From NCBI GenBank assembly GCA_009702045.1, contig WLIV01000025.1, forward strand, positions 1-52,406: 52,406 bases of DNA, in the 5' to 3' direction. Positions 3,949 through 38,749 of this stretch are shown here, in pieces. Both the position numbers and the translations under genes were made by a program. Origin of the DNA: Actinomycetota bacterium (GTDB taxonomy: Bacteria; Actinomycetota; Acidimicrobiia; Acidimicrobiales; Ilumatobacteraceae). The notes beneath the pieces are model-generated. The model saw only the letters and a list, made by a program, of their open reading frames with translations. It made no database searches and had not been told where the DNA came from. The stretch's first letter is position 1. Each line of letters opens with the position of its first letter.

Positions 3949-4083
3949 GTCACGCATCACCAGGGGAAGCGTTGTTGCCCGGCACAGCCGGACCACATCC
4001 CTGCCGAGGCAGGTAGGCACCGTGGGGCTTCCACCCCGGTTGCCGGACTCCCGATCTCTCGGGCGTCACTCGTGATGCATGAC
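3949..4083 (-). ncRNA. SAM riboswitch (SAM-I/SAM-IV superfamily)
   Basis: In RNA sense this leader opens with GTCATGCATCACGAGTGACG and contains CCGGCAACC followed by GGTGCC, the conserved core of SAM-I/SAM-IV aptamers. A 12-bp closing helix pairs GTCATGCATCAC (4083 to 4072) with GTGATGCGTGAC (3960 to 3949) with one G-U pair. Two internal hairpins are visible (CCTGCC/GGCAGG and CCGGC/GCCGG). The aptamer ends about 20 nt before the metX ribosome site and no U-tract follows, so translational control is more likely than termination. The exact subclass is not certain. Confidence 0.88.
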
Positions 4084-4232: not shown

Positions 4233-4763
4233 ATGAGCGTCAGCTATCTCACCCCCAAGGCACGTCCGGTGCTCGTCGGTGCAGCCGGTCGCGGCTCCGT
4301 CGCGGTCGAGCACATCAAGACCGGCGAGGTGATCGTCGCCTTCGGTGGCCGCGCCATGGTGCGCGACGAGTTCGACCTGCTCCCCGAAGGGCAGCGGGCG
4401 CGCAGTATCCAGATCGAGGACGATCTGTACCTCTCTGGCGCACCCGAACCGGAACCCGCCGACTTCATCAACCATTCGTGCCAGCCGAACTGCGGCCTCA
4501 GCGGCGCCACCGTCCTGCTGGCGATGCGCGACATCGAACCAGGCGAACCGCTCACCTACGACTACGCCACCAGCGACGGCAGCGACTACGACGAGTTCGA
4601 CTGCATGTGCGGTGTCGACACCTGCCGGGGCAAGGTCACCGGGCAGGACTGGATGTTGCCAGATCTGCAACTGCGCTACCGCGGTTGGTTCAGCCCGTAC
4701 ATCGCCAACCGCATCGCCGTCCTCTCGCAACCGAGCGGGCAACGTCGGGCCTTCGCCTACTGA
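4233..4763 (+). CDS. SET-domain protein (putative protein-lysine methyltransferase)
   Basis: A 176-residue protein made almost wholly of a SET domain. The SAM-binding NHSC motif is complete (FINHSCQPNC, residues 79-87). The second SET motif is GEPLTYDY (104-111). A post-SET cysteine cluster C-M-C-x4-C (124-131) can bind zinc together with the NHSC cysteine. An N-terminal strand-rich part (RGSVAVEHIKTGEVIVAF) matches the SET start. Such proteins methylate lysines; in a bacterium the target could be a nucleoid or ribosomal protein, but nothing here identifies it. The gene stands alone, divergent from riboswitch-controlled metX. Confidence 0.88.
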   Translation: MSVSYLTPKARPVLVGAAGRGSVAVEHIKTGEVIVAFGGRAMVRDEFDLLPEGQRARSIQIEDDLYLSGAPEPEPADFINHSCQPNCGLSGATVLLAMRDIEPGEPLTYDYATSDGSDYDEFDCMCGVDTCRGKVTGQDWMLPDLQLRYRGWFSPYIANRIAVLSQPSGQRRAFAY

Positions 4764-34808: not shown

Positions 34809-37004
34809 CTATTCGAACAGCGCGAAGTCGATCTTGACCCCGCGCCCCTCACAATTCGGGCATTGGTCAGCGAAGTTCACGAGCAGACCTTCACCGATGC
34901 GCTTGCGGGTCATCTCCACCAGGCCCAGCTCGCTGATGTCGAACACCTGGGTGCGGGTCTTGTCGCGAGCGAGCGCATGGCGGAAGGCGTCGACCACCTT
35001 GCGACGGTTGTCCTTGATCTCCATGTCGATGAAGTCGATGACCACGATGCCGCCGATATCGCGCAGGCGCAGCTGCTTGGCAACCTCCTCGGCCGCCTCC
35101 AGGTTGTTGCGGTAGACGGTCTCCTCGAGGTTCGACGTACCGACGTTCTTACCGGTGTTCACGTCGATCACCGTCAGCGCCTCGGTGTGCTCGATGATCA
35201 ACGAACCACCGCTGGGCAACCAGACCTTGCGGTCGAGCGCCTTGTGCAGTTGTTCGTGGATGTGGAACCGCTCGAACAACGGCAGACCGTCTTCGGCTGC
35301 ATCGAAGTGCTCGATACGGTCGGCCAGTTCAGGGTTGAACGCCTCGACGTACCCACGTACATCTTCGTGCAGGCGGCCGTCGTCGATGACTACGCCGCGG
35401 TACTCGACGTTGAACTCCTCACGAATCACGCGGACGGCCAGTTCCGGTTCGCGGTACAGCAGCGCCGGACCGCCGGCCTTCTTGGCCTTGGCCTCGATGA
35501 CGTTCCACTGATCGAGCAACCGAGTCATGTCGGCACGCAACTCGTGCTCGGTGGCGTTCTCGGCCGCGGTGCGCACGATGAGGCCGTGCTCGCCGGGCTT
35601 CACGCGGTCGAGGATGTTGCGCAGACGCTTGCGCACGTCGTCGGGCAGTCGCTTGGAGATGCCGTAGGTCTTGGAGTGCGGGATCAGGACCACGAAGCGA
35701 CCGGGCAGCGAGACTTCCTGCGTCAGCCGAGCGCCCTTGGCCCCGATCGGGTTCTTCGTCACTTGGCAGACGATGAGTTGCTTCGAGCGCAGCATCTGCT
35801 CGATACGCGGCTCTTCCTTCTTCGACTTCTCGACGATGTCCTCGGCGTCGTACTGCACATCGCCGCGGTAGAGCACGGCGTTCTTCGGTGTGCCGATATC
35901 GACAAACGCTGCCTCCATACCGGGCAGCACGTTCTGCACCTTGCCGACATAGATGTTGCCGTGGATCTGGCTGACGTCGTCGGCCGGACGACTGGTGTAG
36001 TGCTCGATCAGCGTGCGGCCTTCGAGCACTGCCACCTGGGTGAGGTTCGGACGAACCTGCACACACATCAGGTAACGACCGATCGGACGACCGTTGCGCT
36101 CGCGCCCACGGCGACGCTCCAGCACATCGGGATCGAGTTCCGGACCACCCTGTTCGGGACGGCCCTGTTCGGCACGGCCCTGGTCGGGGCGACCCTGACC
36201 CGTGCCGCCGCCGCTGCGGCTCTTGCCGCCGCGCCGGCGCTTCTTCTTGGCGGCTTCGCCTTCGTTCGTCGACGCCTCAGCCTCATCCTCGGTGCTGAGG
36301 GTGGCAGCGGGCCTGCCACCATCGGCCTTCGGCGTGGACGCCGCCCTCGGCCCCTTCGCCTTGGCGCGCTGACCCTGGCCCTGGCCCTGGCCTGCGGCGG
36401 CGACAGGTTGCGCGACAGCCGAGGACGGCCGGGTGTCGCCGATCTGCGGACGGCGCACGAGGGCCTTGTCGGCGGCCTCCGCCGACGGGCGACCTTCGCT
36501 CATGCGTTCGGGCAGTTCAGGGAGTTCGTCGCTCGCGGATGACACCTCAGCAGCGACACGCCCGGGAGTCGGACGTGGGGCGCGGGGCGCCCTCGCCGGC
36601 CGTGCAGCGACTGCAGGGAGATCGGTGGTCTCTGTCTCTGCCGTGTCGTCGCCGCCTTCATCGTCGAAGTCGTCATCATCATCGTCGAACTCGCTGTCAG
36701 CAGCATCGTCGCCGGCTTCACCGACCGGACGCGGCTTCTTGCGGTTCTTTCCCCCGCGCGAACCACGGCGACGTTTGCGCGTCGCCGGCCGCAGGGTGGG
36801 GTCGGCGATGTCGTCGTCGCCAGGTTCGCCAGACTCAGCGGTCTGAGCAGCTGCATCGCCCGCGTCGATGAGACCACCCGTTTGGGGAGTCGAAGCGGCA
36901 GCCGGGGCCGGAGTCTCAGTCGAAGCGGCGGCCGGGGCCGGAGTCTCAGTCGCAGCGGTGTCGGACGCAGACGCGCCGGCAGTGTCGAGTTCGGAGTTGT
37001 CCAT
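34809..37004 (-). CDS. rne: Ribonuclease E/G family protein
   Basis: 731 residues. About 300 N-terminal residues are low complexity and probably disordered: Ala/Thr/Pro repeats (ETPAPAAAST twice), acidic runs (DSEFDDDDDDFDDEGGDD) and basic RKRRRGSRGGKNRKK. The catalytic core follows: S1-like domain (HGNIYVGKVQNVLPGMEAAF), the DNase I-like part with metal-binding Asp in EALTVIDVNTGK and GGIVVIDFIDM, and the Zn-link CPNCEGRG just before the C-terminus. It is the main mRNA-decay and rRNA-processing endonuclease. The extra N-terminal tail, typical of actinobacterial RNase E, could anchor partners. AGAAGGGA precedes the ATG. Confidence 0.96.
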   Translation of the reverse strand: MDNSELDTAGASASDTAATETPAPAAASTETPAPAAASTPQTGGLIDAGDAAAQTAESGEPGDDDIADPTLRPATRKRRRGSRGGKNRKKPRPVGEAGDDAADSEFDDDDDDFDDEGGDDTAETETTDLPAVAARPARAPRAPRPTPGRVAAEVSSASDELPELPERMSEGRPSAEAADKALVRRPQIGDTRPSSAVAQPVAAAGQGQGQGQRAKAKGPRAASTPKADGGRPAATLSTEDEAEASTNEGEAAKKKRRRGGKSRSGGGTGQGRPDQGRAEQGRPEQGGPELDPDVLERRRGRERNGRPIGRYLMCVQVRPNLTQVAVLEGRTLIEHYTSRPADDVSQIHGNIYVGKVQNVLPGMEAAFVDIGTPKNAVLYRGDVQYDAEDIVEKSKKEEPRIEQMLRSKQLIVCQVTKNPIGAKGARLTQEVSLPGRFVVLIPHSKTYGISKRLPDDVRKRLRNILDRVKPGEHGLIVRTAAENATEHELRADMTRLLDQWNVIEAKAKKAGGPALLYREPELAVRVIREEFNVEYRGVVIDDGRLHEDVRGYVEAFNPELADRIEHFDAAEDGLPLFERFHIHEQLHKALDRKVWLPSGGSLIIEHTEALTVIDVNTGKNVGTSNLEETVYRNNLEAAEEVAKQLRLRDIGGIVVIDFIDMEIKDNRRKVVDAFRHALARDKTRTQVFDISELGLVEMTRKRIGEGLLVNFADQCPNCEGRGVKIDFALFE

Positions 37005-37019
37005 GAAATGAGTCCCTTC

Positions 37020-37499
37020 TCATGCGCACCCCACTGGGGTACGCGTCGCAACCGCACGCGCCGGGATGATCTCCCTGCGCACTGCGTCGCGCTCGATCCA
37101 TTGATGTGTGCGCAACACTCGTCCGGTCACATTGATCGGGTCGAGTGCGGGGAACAGCGCGCCGGCGAATTCCGTCGGACGCAGTCCCCTTCCATTCGTG
37201 GCCAGCACCGCGCACAGGTGTGGCCGGGGATCGTCGGCCACCGAGGTGACCGACAGAGCTTCTCGGGGCGCGTACGTTCGCTCGGCGACTGCGCCGCTGC
37301 GTTCGTTCAGGATTTCGTAGAGGATCTGGAGCCCCTGGTTGGGAAAGCCGATTTCGTACGTGTCGGGGTAGGCGAGCAGCCACGACACCCGATCCGGCGC
37401 AGGCCGGGGGGTGACGGCGCCGTCCTCGCACCCGATGTAACGGGCCGGTTGTTGCACCCGAGCCAGGAGCGGTTTGATCCGCGCCCAGAGTGAGGTCAT
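37020..37499 (-). pseudogene. Remnant ORF: start of a B12-binding radical SAM gene joined to the end of a DUF2344 gene
   Basis: The frame encodes 159 residues. Residues 1 to about 79 match the start of TIGR03960-type B12-binding radical SAM proteins (LWARIKPLLARVQQPARYIG, then YPDTYEIGFPNQGLQILYEI, then LNERSGAVAERTYAP). Residues about 80-159 change character (VLATNGRGLRPTEFAGALFP, then GRVLRTHQWIERDAV) and resemble the C-terminal part of DUF2344 proteins. No CxxxCxxC radical-SAM cysteines remain. In other actinobacteria these two genes lie between rodA and rne, exactly here. A deletion of a few kb that fused the two genes in frame explains this. It may still be translated; function is doubtful. 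Confidence 0.7.
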
Positions 37500-37541
37500 G
37501 TTCCCGCCGAGTCTACCCTGCAGGTACCCGACGACGCCGGA

Positions 37542-37570
37542 TGAGCAGCTTGACGTGATCGTGCTGCTCA
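37542..37570 (-). terminator. Weak hairpin at the rodA stop
   Basis: TGAGCAGC (37542-37549) pairs with GCTGCTCA (37563-37570), overlapping the rodA stop codon. No U-tract, so termination is uncertain. Confidence 0.35.
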
Positions 37571-38749
37571 GCGGTAACGGCGCATGTGGACGTTCTGCAC
37601 CAAGCCCATCAAGGCGAAGAACGTCACCAGGCCTGAGCCGCCATAGGAGATGAACGGCAACGGCAGGCCGGTGATCGGCATGATACCGACGGTCATCGCG
37701 ATGCTCTGAAACACCTGCCAGAGCAGAATTGAGAACACGCCGACACACAGGTACGTACCCAAGAGATCGCGGGAAAGGTGCGAGATGCGCCAAATTCGCA
37801 ATAGCACCACGGCGTACAGCCCGAGGAGGACCGCTGCGCCGACCAACCCGAACTCCTCGCCGACAGCCGAGAACGGGAAGTCTGCCCATTGCACCGGGAT
37901 GTCGTTGCGAGCCATGGTGATCGGGCCGTGCAGCCACCCCTTGCCGGCGATGCCGCCAGTGGCCACGGCACGCACCGCATTGCGCCCCTGATACACATAG
38001 TCGCGCAGGGCAGGATCGTTGGAGTCCTGGTTGAAGAACGCAGTGAACCGGCGCAGTTGGTACTGGCTCAGCAGGTCGGTCACCAGCGCCCCACCCACCG
38101 TGCCGATCGAGACAAACGTAATTAGTGCCATGTAGCGCAACTTGGCGCCGGCGACCAGCATGATTCCCATCGCCATCACGATCAACACCGACGACGTGCC
38201 GAGGTCGGGTTGCAGGATGATCAAACCTGCTGGCATGCCCACCAGCATGAGACCAATGATGAACCGGTGGTACAGCAAGACATCGCTGCGATCCTCGGCG
38301 AGATAGGCCGCAACGGTGAGCAGCACGGTGAACTTGCTGAACTCAGCCGGCTGCAGCTTGAGCGGGCCGACGTTGAAGCTGAGCGATGCGCCGCCGCTCA
38401 CTGCTCCCACCAGGATCACCAACGTCAGCAGCATCAAGGTCGCGCCGTACAAGAACCGGGCATGGTCCTTCCACCAGTCGTAGTCGAACGCCATCACGAT
38501 CGCCATCGTGATGACCGCGCCGATCAGGAAGATCTCCTGGCGGGTGACGAACTGGAAGTCGAAGGGAGCCGTGGCCCCTGGGCCGTACTTCGTACGCGAA
38601 GCGGAGTAGATGACGGCGAGTCCGAGGAGCGAGAGCGCGCTGACCGCCATCATCAACACCCAGTCGATGTTGCGCGTCGGAGCGCTGGCACTCGCCCGGA
38701 TGTTGCCCAGCCCGGAGTCGGGCCGACGACGGAGGAAAGTCGCCGCCAT
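37568..38749 (-). CDS. rodA: Rod-shape peptidoglycan polymerase RodA
   Basis: 393 residues, polytopic SEDS protein (about 10 helices). Family marks: LKLQPAEFSKF, LQPDLGTSSVLI and the C-terminal ITGLPLPFISYGGSGLV. It polymerises glycan strands with PBP2 during cell elongation. The gene lies 3 bp after mrdA, at the end of the mreBCD-mrdA-rodA set, and so marks this as a rod-forming elongasome rather than the division paralogue FtsW. Confidence 0.95.
   Translation of the reverse strand: MAATFLRRRPDSGLGNIRASASAPTRNIDWVLMMAVSALSLLGLAVIYSASRTKYGPGATAPFDFQFVTRQEIFLIGAVITMAIVMAFDYDWWKDHARFLYGATLMLLTLVILVGAVSGGASLSFNVGPLKLQPAEFSKFTVLLTVAAYLAEDRSDVLLYHRFIIGLMLVGMPAGLIILQPDLGTSSVLIVMAMGIMLVAGAKLRYMALITFVSIGTVGGALVTDLLSQYQLRRFTAFFNQDSNDPALRDYVYQGRNAVRAVATGGIAGKGWLHGPITMARNDIPVQWADFPFSAVGEEFGLVGAAVLLGLYAVVLLRIWRISHLSRDLLGTYLCVGVFSILLWQVFQSIAMTVGIMPITGLPLPFISYGGSGLVTFFALMGLVQNVHMRRYR

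Follow-up and report, generated by a model that had tools for sequence, protein, structure and literature searches.

Intact relatives of the organism studied here carry, in the same place beside rne and in the same order, a pair of genes encoding a TIGR03960-type B12-binding radical SAM (rSAM) protein and a DUF2344 (TIGR03936) protein. This pair is the source of both halves of the remnant described below, which differs from it in lacking the catalytic middle and most of DUF2344. No function of the intact pair was found in the open-licence full texts of PubMed Central, as judged by title and the start of the abstract, and no paper in that collection treats Ilumatobacter together with RNase E.

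The 5' untranslated region of E. coli rne is reported (Schuck 2009) to be bound by RNase E for autoregulation. The two cases have in common a cis region ahead of rne with the potential to determine its expression; the locus reported here differs in being coding debris that follows a leaderless-type promoter, and in having no Rfam match. A second point of comparison is provided by the leaderless transcripts and upstream open reading frames (ORFs) of mycobacteria and other actinobacteria, to which the loci reported here are similar in their TANNNT box 6-11 nt before the start codon and in the rarity of a core resembling a Shine-Dalgarno (SD) sequence; an excerpt of PMC10641625 puts the leaderless share of mycobacterial genes at about 15%. 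Unlike those ORFs, the one found here is left over from two enzyme genes, and synonymous constraint affects 77 codons of the intact gene. A third is translational coupling by overlap of a stop codon with the next SD sequence, the subject of a review (PMC12548453): here the TGA overlaps AGAAGGGA, 15 nt before rne. That geometry is kept in the present genome (G000) and in one relative (G123), whereas 15 of 20 comparable scars overrun the rne start in another frame.

The window analyzed is a stretch of 52,406 nucleotides of contig WLIV01000025.1 from a member of the Ilumatobacteraceae, in which the interval between rodA and rne holds a single open frame, here called the scar, in place of the two genes. 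The features of the locus, as aligned with the closest relative (G200), are as follows.

37568..38749, minus strand: rodA, the gene upstream of the scar
37510..37515, minus strand: TAGACT, putative -10 box 10 nt ahead of the ATG, for a promoter of near-leaderless type (start scan; box conserved in relatives)
37020..37499, minus strand: fused remnant frame (scar), 159 codons, read here as a likely leader cistron of rne (ORF, alignment to G200, substitution counts, start scan)
37267..37499, minus strand: TIGR03960 B12-binding radical SAM remnant, codons 1-78, corresponding to the synonymously constrained stretch of intact genes (profile match and G200 alignment)
37263..37266, minus strand: junction bases of uncertain origin, flanked by TACGCGCC (rSAM side) and GAAGCTCTG (DUF2344 side) (G200 alignment)
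37020..37262, minus strand: DUF2344 remnant, about the last 80 codons, in the original frame and with its own TGA (G200 alignment)
37013..37022, minus strand: TGAGAAGGGA, in which the DUF2344 stop overlaps the Shine-Dalgarno sequence of rne, 15 nt ahead of the ATG of that gene, a coupling geometry
34809..37004, minus strand: rne (RNase E/G), the cistron downstream of the scar

Elsewhere in the window, a SAM-I/IV riboswitch (Rfam RF01725, 44.3 bits) lies at 3961-4083 on the minus strand, directly before an ORF (3953-2727) that we take to resemble homoserine O-acetyltransferase (MetX), and a 176-aa ORF at 4233-4763 on the plus strand presumably resembles a SET-domain protein.

The scar frame runs from an ATG at 37499 through 159 codons to a TGA ending at 37020 on the minus strand. 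In a profile search its residues 11-82 aligned with positions 3-74 of the 605 in TIGR03960 (rSAM_fuse_unch; E 1.5e-16), and at 60.1 bits the scar stays below the curated cut-off of that family, 462.3 bits. The radical SAM core is missing, since the frame stops at 159 residues and rSAM sequence past codon 78 is absent. The Pfam profile of DUF2344 (PF10105) found no match in the scar protein, and the assignment of the second half comes from alignment with the G200 gene and not from a profile. The G200 locus has the order rodA, radical SAM protein (659 residues), DUF2344 protein (240 residues) and rne; the scar is 94% identical to it at the nucleotide level over rSAM codons 1-78 and 97% over the DUF2344 end, with the two matching regions about 2.4 kb apart in two genes. 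The scar breaks after TACGCGCC, at rSAM codon 78, and is joined at 37267/37262 with about four ambiguous bases; both halves keep their original reading frames and about 2.2 kb is missing relative to G200. A preliminary description made from the DNA letters had proposed that two syntenic genes normally found between rodA and rne were reduced to one in-frame remnant of 159 codons, TIGR03960-like at its beginning and DUF2344-like at its end, with a break near residue 79. The profile match and the G200 alignment bear this out, with the break placed at codon 78 and the intact pair present at that position in sister species such as G200.

The rest of the genes is gone from this genome (99.45% complete, 56 contigs), in which no DUF2344 match at E <= 0.001 and no other TIGR03960 pieces were found; a search for a second copy of the 233 nt of the rSAM part gave only short chance matches, the best at E 0.03. 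Across 221 genomes of the family the scar protein was matched in 57, and residues 1-159 occurred in one piece only in G000, so that the conserved homologues of the same 159-residue architecture that would have spoken against a deletion scar do not occur among them. An assembly error is exceedingly improbable as the origin of the scar, because comparable scars occur in independent relatives; in addition, the junction is internal to a 52 kb contig and the lost middle is found nowhere else in the 99% complete genome. The scar is a true deletion of the TIGR03960 and DUF2344 pair between rodA and rne. Microhomology was considered for the junction. TACGCGCC is found near the break in both G200 genes, but in differing frames, and is insufficient alone to account for the junction; another relative (G209) seemingly lacks it.

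Constraint on the protein encoded by the remnant is relaxed. With four relatives used to polarise the changes, the G000 branch, which is partly older than the deletion, carries 10 nonsynonymous and 6 synonymous changes (10 N : 6 S, with one further change unresolved), of which the rSAM part accounts for 7 N : 2 S and the DUF2344 part for 3 N : 4 S. On the G200 branch the corresponding counts are 0 N : 5 S and 1 N : 0 S. The rodA gene has 12 N : 53 S on the branch leading to G000, plus 21 unresolved changes. The remnant differs from rodA on the G000 branch (Fisher p 0.001), and the comparison of the remnant between the G000 and G200 branches gives p 0.15. A branch codon model, for which the rodA run had implausibly long branches and served only as a contrast, gave omega 0.42 on the G000 branch vs. 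0.12 elsewhere (LRT p 0.024).

The preliminary description left two outcomes side by side, a recent deletion or a retained small protein, and suggested looking for a dN/dS below 1 over the frame. The estimate of 0.42 does lie below 1 and is not separable from it (p 0.15), and with this value and the count of 10 N : 6 S, purifying selection on the amino acid sequence of the remnant was not detected. The deletion is the outcome that the data favour. The frame is open, with a genuine start and stop and two recognisable halves, as a functional small protein of 159 residues would have it; such a protein is very unlikely nonetheless in view of the substitution counts, the changes at the near-invariant positions E9, L52 and D69, and the lack of a homologue of the same architecture among the 221 family genomes. 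AlphaFold2 likewise predicted no fold for the fused protein (mean pLDDT 37.3), which is weak evidence with an alignment of 27 rows and one real homologue for the second half. The remnant protein is probably non-functional and most likely dead.

Loss of the gene pair is recurrent in Ilumatobacteraceae. TIGR03960 scored above its cut-off in 49 of the 221 family genomes, and in the 15 genomes of the organism's own genus the gene is present in 11, whole or broken by contig ends, without a match in three and reduced to the scar in G000. From the genomes that lack the intact pair, 40 were chosen and their rodA-rne intervals inspected; 34 had rodA, and these together with G000, G209 and G123 make up a set of 37 genomes without the pair. 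A rodA tree of these 37 and of 30 genomes with intact genes, plus three outgroup rows, requires 11 changes, at least 9 of them forced by well supported branches, or 13 if only losses are allowed. The pair was thus lost 9-13 times among the 67 sampled family genomes. This comparison of the interval in relatives, which the preliminary description had called for, revealed the intact pair in sister species and other scars in various stages of decay. In G209 the rSAM gene is kept to codon 78/79 and the DUF2344 tail is out of frame; in G123 it is kept to about codon 75, with the DUF2344 tail in frame and 120 codons in all. Gapped remnants are found in G124 and in G053/G060, and little remains in G194-G196. 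Between pairs of gene-less genomes the rodA-rne interval differs by 0.04-0.30, vs. 0.15-0.62 at fourfold sites of rodA, and is lower in all nine pairs, some of which share a genome (e.g. 0.05 vs. 0.29 for G207/G208 and 0.08 vs. 0.17 for G053/G060); promoters and ribosome-binding sites contribute part of this low change.

The signals at the two ends of the locus are conserved. Among 87 distinct intact loci of Acidimicrobiia, 82 have a TANNNT box 6-11 nt ahead of the rSAM start, vs. 0-3 at seven shifted positions, and an SD-like core precedes the start in only 12. In other Actinomycetota the rSAM start is of the leaderless type in 10 of 70 loci. At the other end the DUF2344 stop is placed at -15 from rne in 39 of 59 distinct loci including this scar (38 of 58 without it) and at -12 in five more, and the loci with the stop at -15 have TGAGAAGGGA or a near variant as the overlap of stop and SD sequence. 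G000 retains both ends. Its scar has the conserved, putative -10 box by the start codon that is expected of a leaderless leader cistron (TAGACT, gap 10), and its TGA at -15 overlaps the SD sequence of the next gene as in a coupled pair.

We somewhat favor the view that the scar serves as the leader cistron of rne, its frame being maintained for translation and not for its product. An in-frame deletion of about 2.2 kb, from rSAM codon 79 to about DUF2344 codon 160 (G200 coordinates), would have spared both ends, the leaderless promoter with its start codon on one side and, on the other, the stop that overlaps the rne SD sequence. Transcription would then begin at or next to the ATG of the scar, and ribosomes would read the 159-codon remnant to TGAGAAGGGA and pass to rne, as they presumably did from DUF2344 before; if translation passes through the remnant into rne in this way, the frame would be kept for that translation rather than for the product.

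A scan of the 37 scar genomes for an ATG or GTG preceded by a TANNNT box found a start in 23. Four weak GTG cases were excluded, two closing after 7 and 2 codons (G215 and G085) and two open (G078 and G174), and G112 was added by hand after its rne start had been missed; manual placement was used for the start of rne in G112, G117, G134 and G174, and in G207, G208 and G123 the second of two candidate starts was used, the first closing after 2 codons. On these terms 19 of 20 accepted leaderless-type scars are free of stops before -15 (21 of 24 with the weak cases), including all 14 that start with ATG. With one genome per loss, i.e. 11 lineages (G000, G194, G207, G124, G117, G118, G134, G033, G053, G209 and G123, with G117 representing the clade of G112), there are no premature stops in the leader frame, vs. 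30 and 23 in the other two frames. The openness of the leader frame in recognisable scars is in part a legacy of their coding origin. In the six lineages where hardly any coding sequence can be recognised (G194, G207, G117, G118, G134 and G033), the leader frame has 0 stops and the others 11 and 8, and the chance that all six are open is about 1e-3, as the product of shuffle probabilities.

Several findings count against a leader cistron: there are two stops in the leader frame of G112, some starts are weak, and the scan found no start in 14 of the 37 genomes, including six of the seven in genus g27. Moreover, the leader is in phase 0 with rne in 5 of 20 scars (G000, G123, G207, G208 and G112), in phase 1 in the other 15 and in phase 2 in none, and those 15 overrun the rne start, unlike stop-and-restart coupling.

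A plain recent deletion without any function, in which the frame is open by chance, as one in three junctions will be in frame, and because the scar is young, appears to us rather unlikely. It agrees with a branch that gathered only 16 changes over 465 nt, at an N:S near the neutral ratio, with the decay of older scars, and with a probability of an open frame by shuffling of 0.041, which is raised by the inherited coding sequence. It does not account for a frame that is open to rne in 19 of the 20 accepted scars (21 of 24 with the weak cases), for the reduced change of gene-less rodA-rne intervals in nine of nine pairs, some sharing a genome, or for the break of G000 and G209 at the same codon.

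The scar genomes show further variety before rne. The phase-1 leaders that overlap the rne start are those of L141-L143, L148, L158-L160, L163, L166-L169, L179, L180 and L053. In G207 and G208 (L146 from 1417, minus strand; L147 from 3231, plus strand) a GTG 10 nt past TACACT opens a frame that runs into rne, and RNase E may there have an N-terminal extension through this in-frame GTG, the earlier GTG giving 2 codons only. In genus g5 the leaderless-type ORFs before rne in L166, L168 and L169 have a hydrophobic start and could encode a small membrane protein. In small-genome relatives (G152, G149 and G154; L173-L175) the rne leaders are short and GC-rich, with apparent hairpins judged by eye and no leader ORF found, and they resemble a structured 5' UTR.

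The most interesting part of the locus is a nucleotide-level constraint that covers codons 1-77 of intact rSAM genes; the deletion keeps to the edge of this constraint. The 87 distinct intact genes were arranged into 31 pairs, each sequence being used once. Over codons 1-79 the ratio of observed to expected synonymous differences (O/E) was 0.66, with 26 of the 31 pairs below their value for the remainder of the gene. In the 18 pairs within the family, 215 synonymous differences were seen in codons 1-77, where the remainder of the gene predicts 421.4 (O/E 0.51), with all 18 below 1 (0.16-0.92 for single pairs) and z -13, a value inflated because codons and pairs are treated as independent and some pair paths overlap in the tree. 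In steps of six codons the family O/E was 0.29-0.78 up to codon 78, 1.16 at codons 79-84 and 0.75-1.41 up to codon 120, and other windows of 77 codons gave 0.89 to 1.11. L052 (2206-2436) and its homologues exemplify these rSAM codons 1-77, with half the expected synonymous change and a partial effect in other Acidimicrobiia (O/E 0.79 in 13 pairs, 8 of them below 1). In 23 pairs from other Actinomycetota the O/E over the block was 0.98, and codons 1-20 alone were low there too (0.77 and 0.79). No comparable block was found in rodA or in the catalytic part of rne (0.80-1.18 in windows of 20 codons); the last 100 codons of DUF2344 were mildly low (498 vs. 575.7 expected; 0.68 for the last 20 codons, in the numbering of the reference used). 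The edge of the constraint lies at codon 78/79. G000 and G209 break exactly there and G123 within about four codons, and G124 and G053/G060 differ; the coincidence of three breaks at or near the edge was noticed post hoc and is suggestive.

Codon bias does not explain the constraint: in the 32 sequences shown of the 87, GC3 was 0.66-0.95 in codons 1-79 and 0.48-0.97 in the rest of the gene, mostly lower at the beginning in GC-rich members and higher in GC-poor ones. An overlapping gene was also considered. In all 87 genes, frames +1, +2, -0, -1 and -2 were open over codons 1-77 in 7, 36, 45, 0 and 28, respectively, none of them family-wide. Frame -2 was open in 20 of 41 family sequences, whereas 24 control segments averaged 2.2 and reached at most 14, which is what an antisense gene would lead one to expect; no other frame was much above its control mean. 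Frame -2 is closed by stops, however, in most sequences of genus g1 and in L049, L039 and L056, so an antisense gene cannot explain the constraint in that genus, and the pairs L052/L055, L041/L060, L049/L038 and L039/L050 are among the most constrained despite these closures. We regard an overlapping antisense gene as a highly improbable cause. In genus g6 (e.g. L016, L090 and L099) frame -2 of rSAM codons 1-77 is free of stops more often than in controls, possibly by chance or as a gene.

The loci with the constraint are of the leaderless type and those without it mostly are not, a contrast that suggests a regulatory element located within coding sequence, in a transcript that would have no 5' UTR. 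Some leaderless-type loci lack the constraint, and leaderless transcription alone is therefore insufficient to produce it. At the locus no Rfam family was matched in the window or in 12 loci, with one sub-threshold match elsewhere in L054. Covarying base pairs were not supported in 14 sequences (covariation term +0.37, a double change in 3 of 55 pairs). The fold energy of codons 1-77 against synonymous shuffles had a mean z of -1.16 and was negative in 13 of 13 sequences, which is weak since they are related; control segments gave -0.37, -0.08 and -0.56. Among 51-nt windows along the gene, RNAalifold found those at codons 2-30 to be the most stable, a stability that sequence conservation alone could yield, and no compensatory changes were seen there by eye.

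It is possible, and we put it forward tentatively, that rSAM codons 1-77 contain a nucleic-acid element which guided the deletion: the rne transcript would still need the element, so that deletions sparing it survive. This is compatible with a leader cistron, and our confidence in the two overlaps. The O/E of 0.51 up to the edge at codon 78/79, the fact that G000 and G209 break there and G123 at about codon 75, and the lack of such a block in rodA, rne (0.80-1.18) and the genes of other Actinomycetota (0.98) speak for the element; the missing covariation and Rfam family (14 sequences; window and 12 loci), the loss of much or most of it in G124, G053/G060 and G194-G196, the slight constraint in some family pairs (0.74-0.92) and the 7 nonsynonymous changes within it in the G000 remnant speak against it. 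Stated for the family as a whole, the first 77 or so codons of the leaderless rSAM gene may double as a cis-acting element of the rne operon, placed within coding sequence because the transcript would have no 5' untranslated region, and, once the enzyme pair is dispensable, deletions with similar breakpoints would repeatedly strip the locus to this element and the ribosome-binding region of rne; we hold this, too, as less probable than its opposite. By analogy with E. coli, autoregulation of RNase E through its own leader is an obvious candidate for the role of the constrained stretch.

The 9 to 13 losses of one gene pair amount to a series of natural experiments that separate the dispensable from the retained parts of the locus. 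They draw attention to 230 nt of hidden constraint in a bacterial coding region, at the start of the gene cluster to which the RNase E gene belongs; the constraint is strong in Ilumatobacteraceae, uneven across other Acidimicrobiia and missing from the remaining Actinomycetota examined. Should the element prove to control RNase E, it would be an example of how regulation is carried by a leaderless operon that lacks a 5' untranslated region, and in Ilumatobacteraceae a biosynthetic gene pair would repeatedly have become the leader of RNase E.
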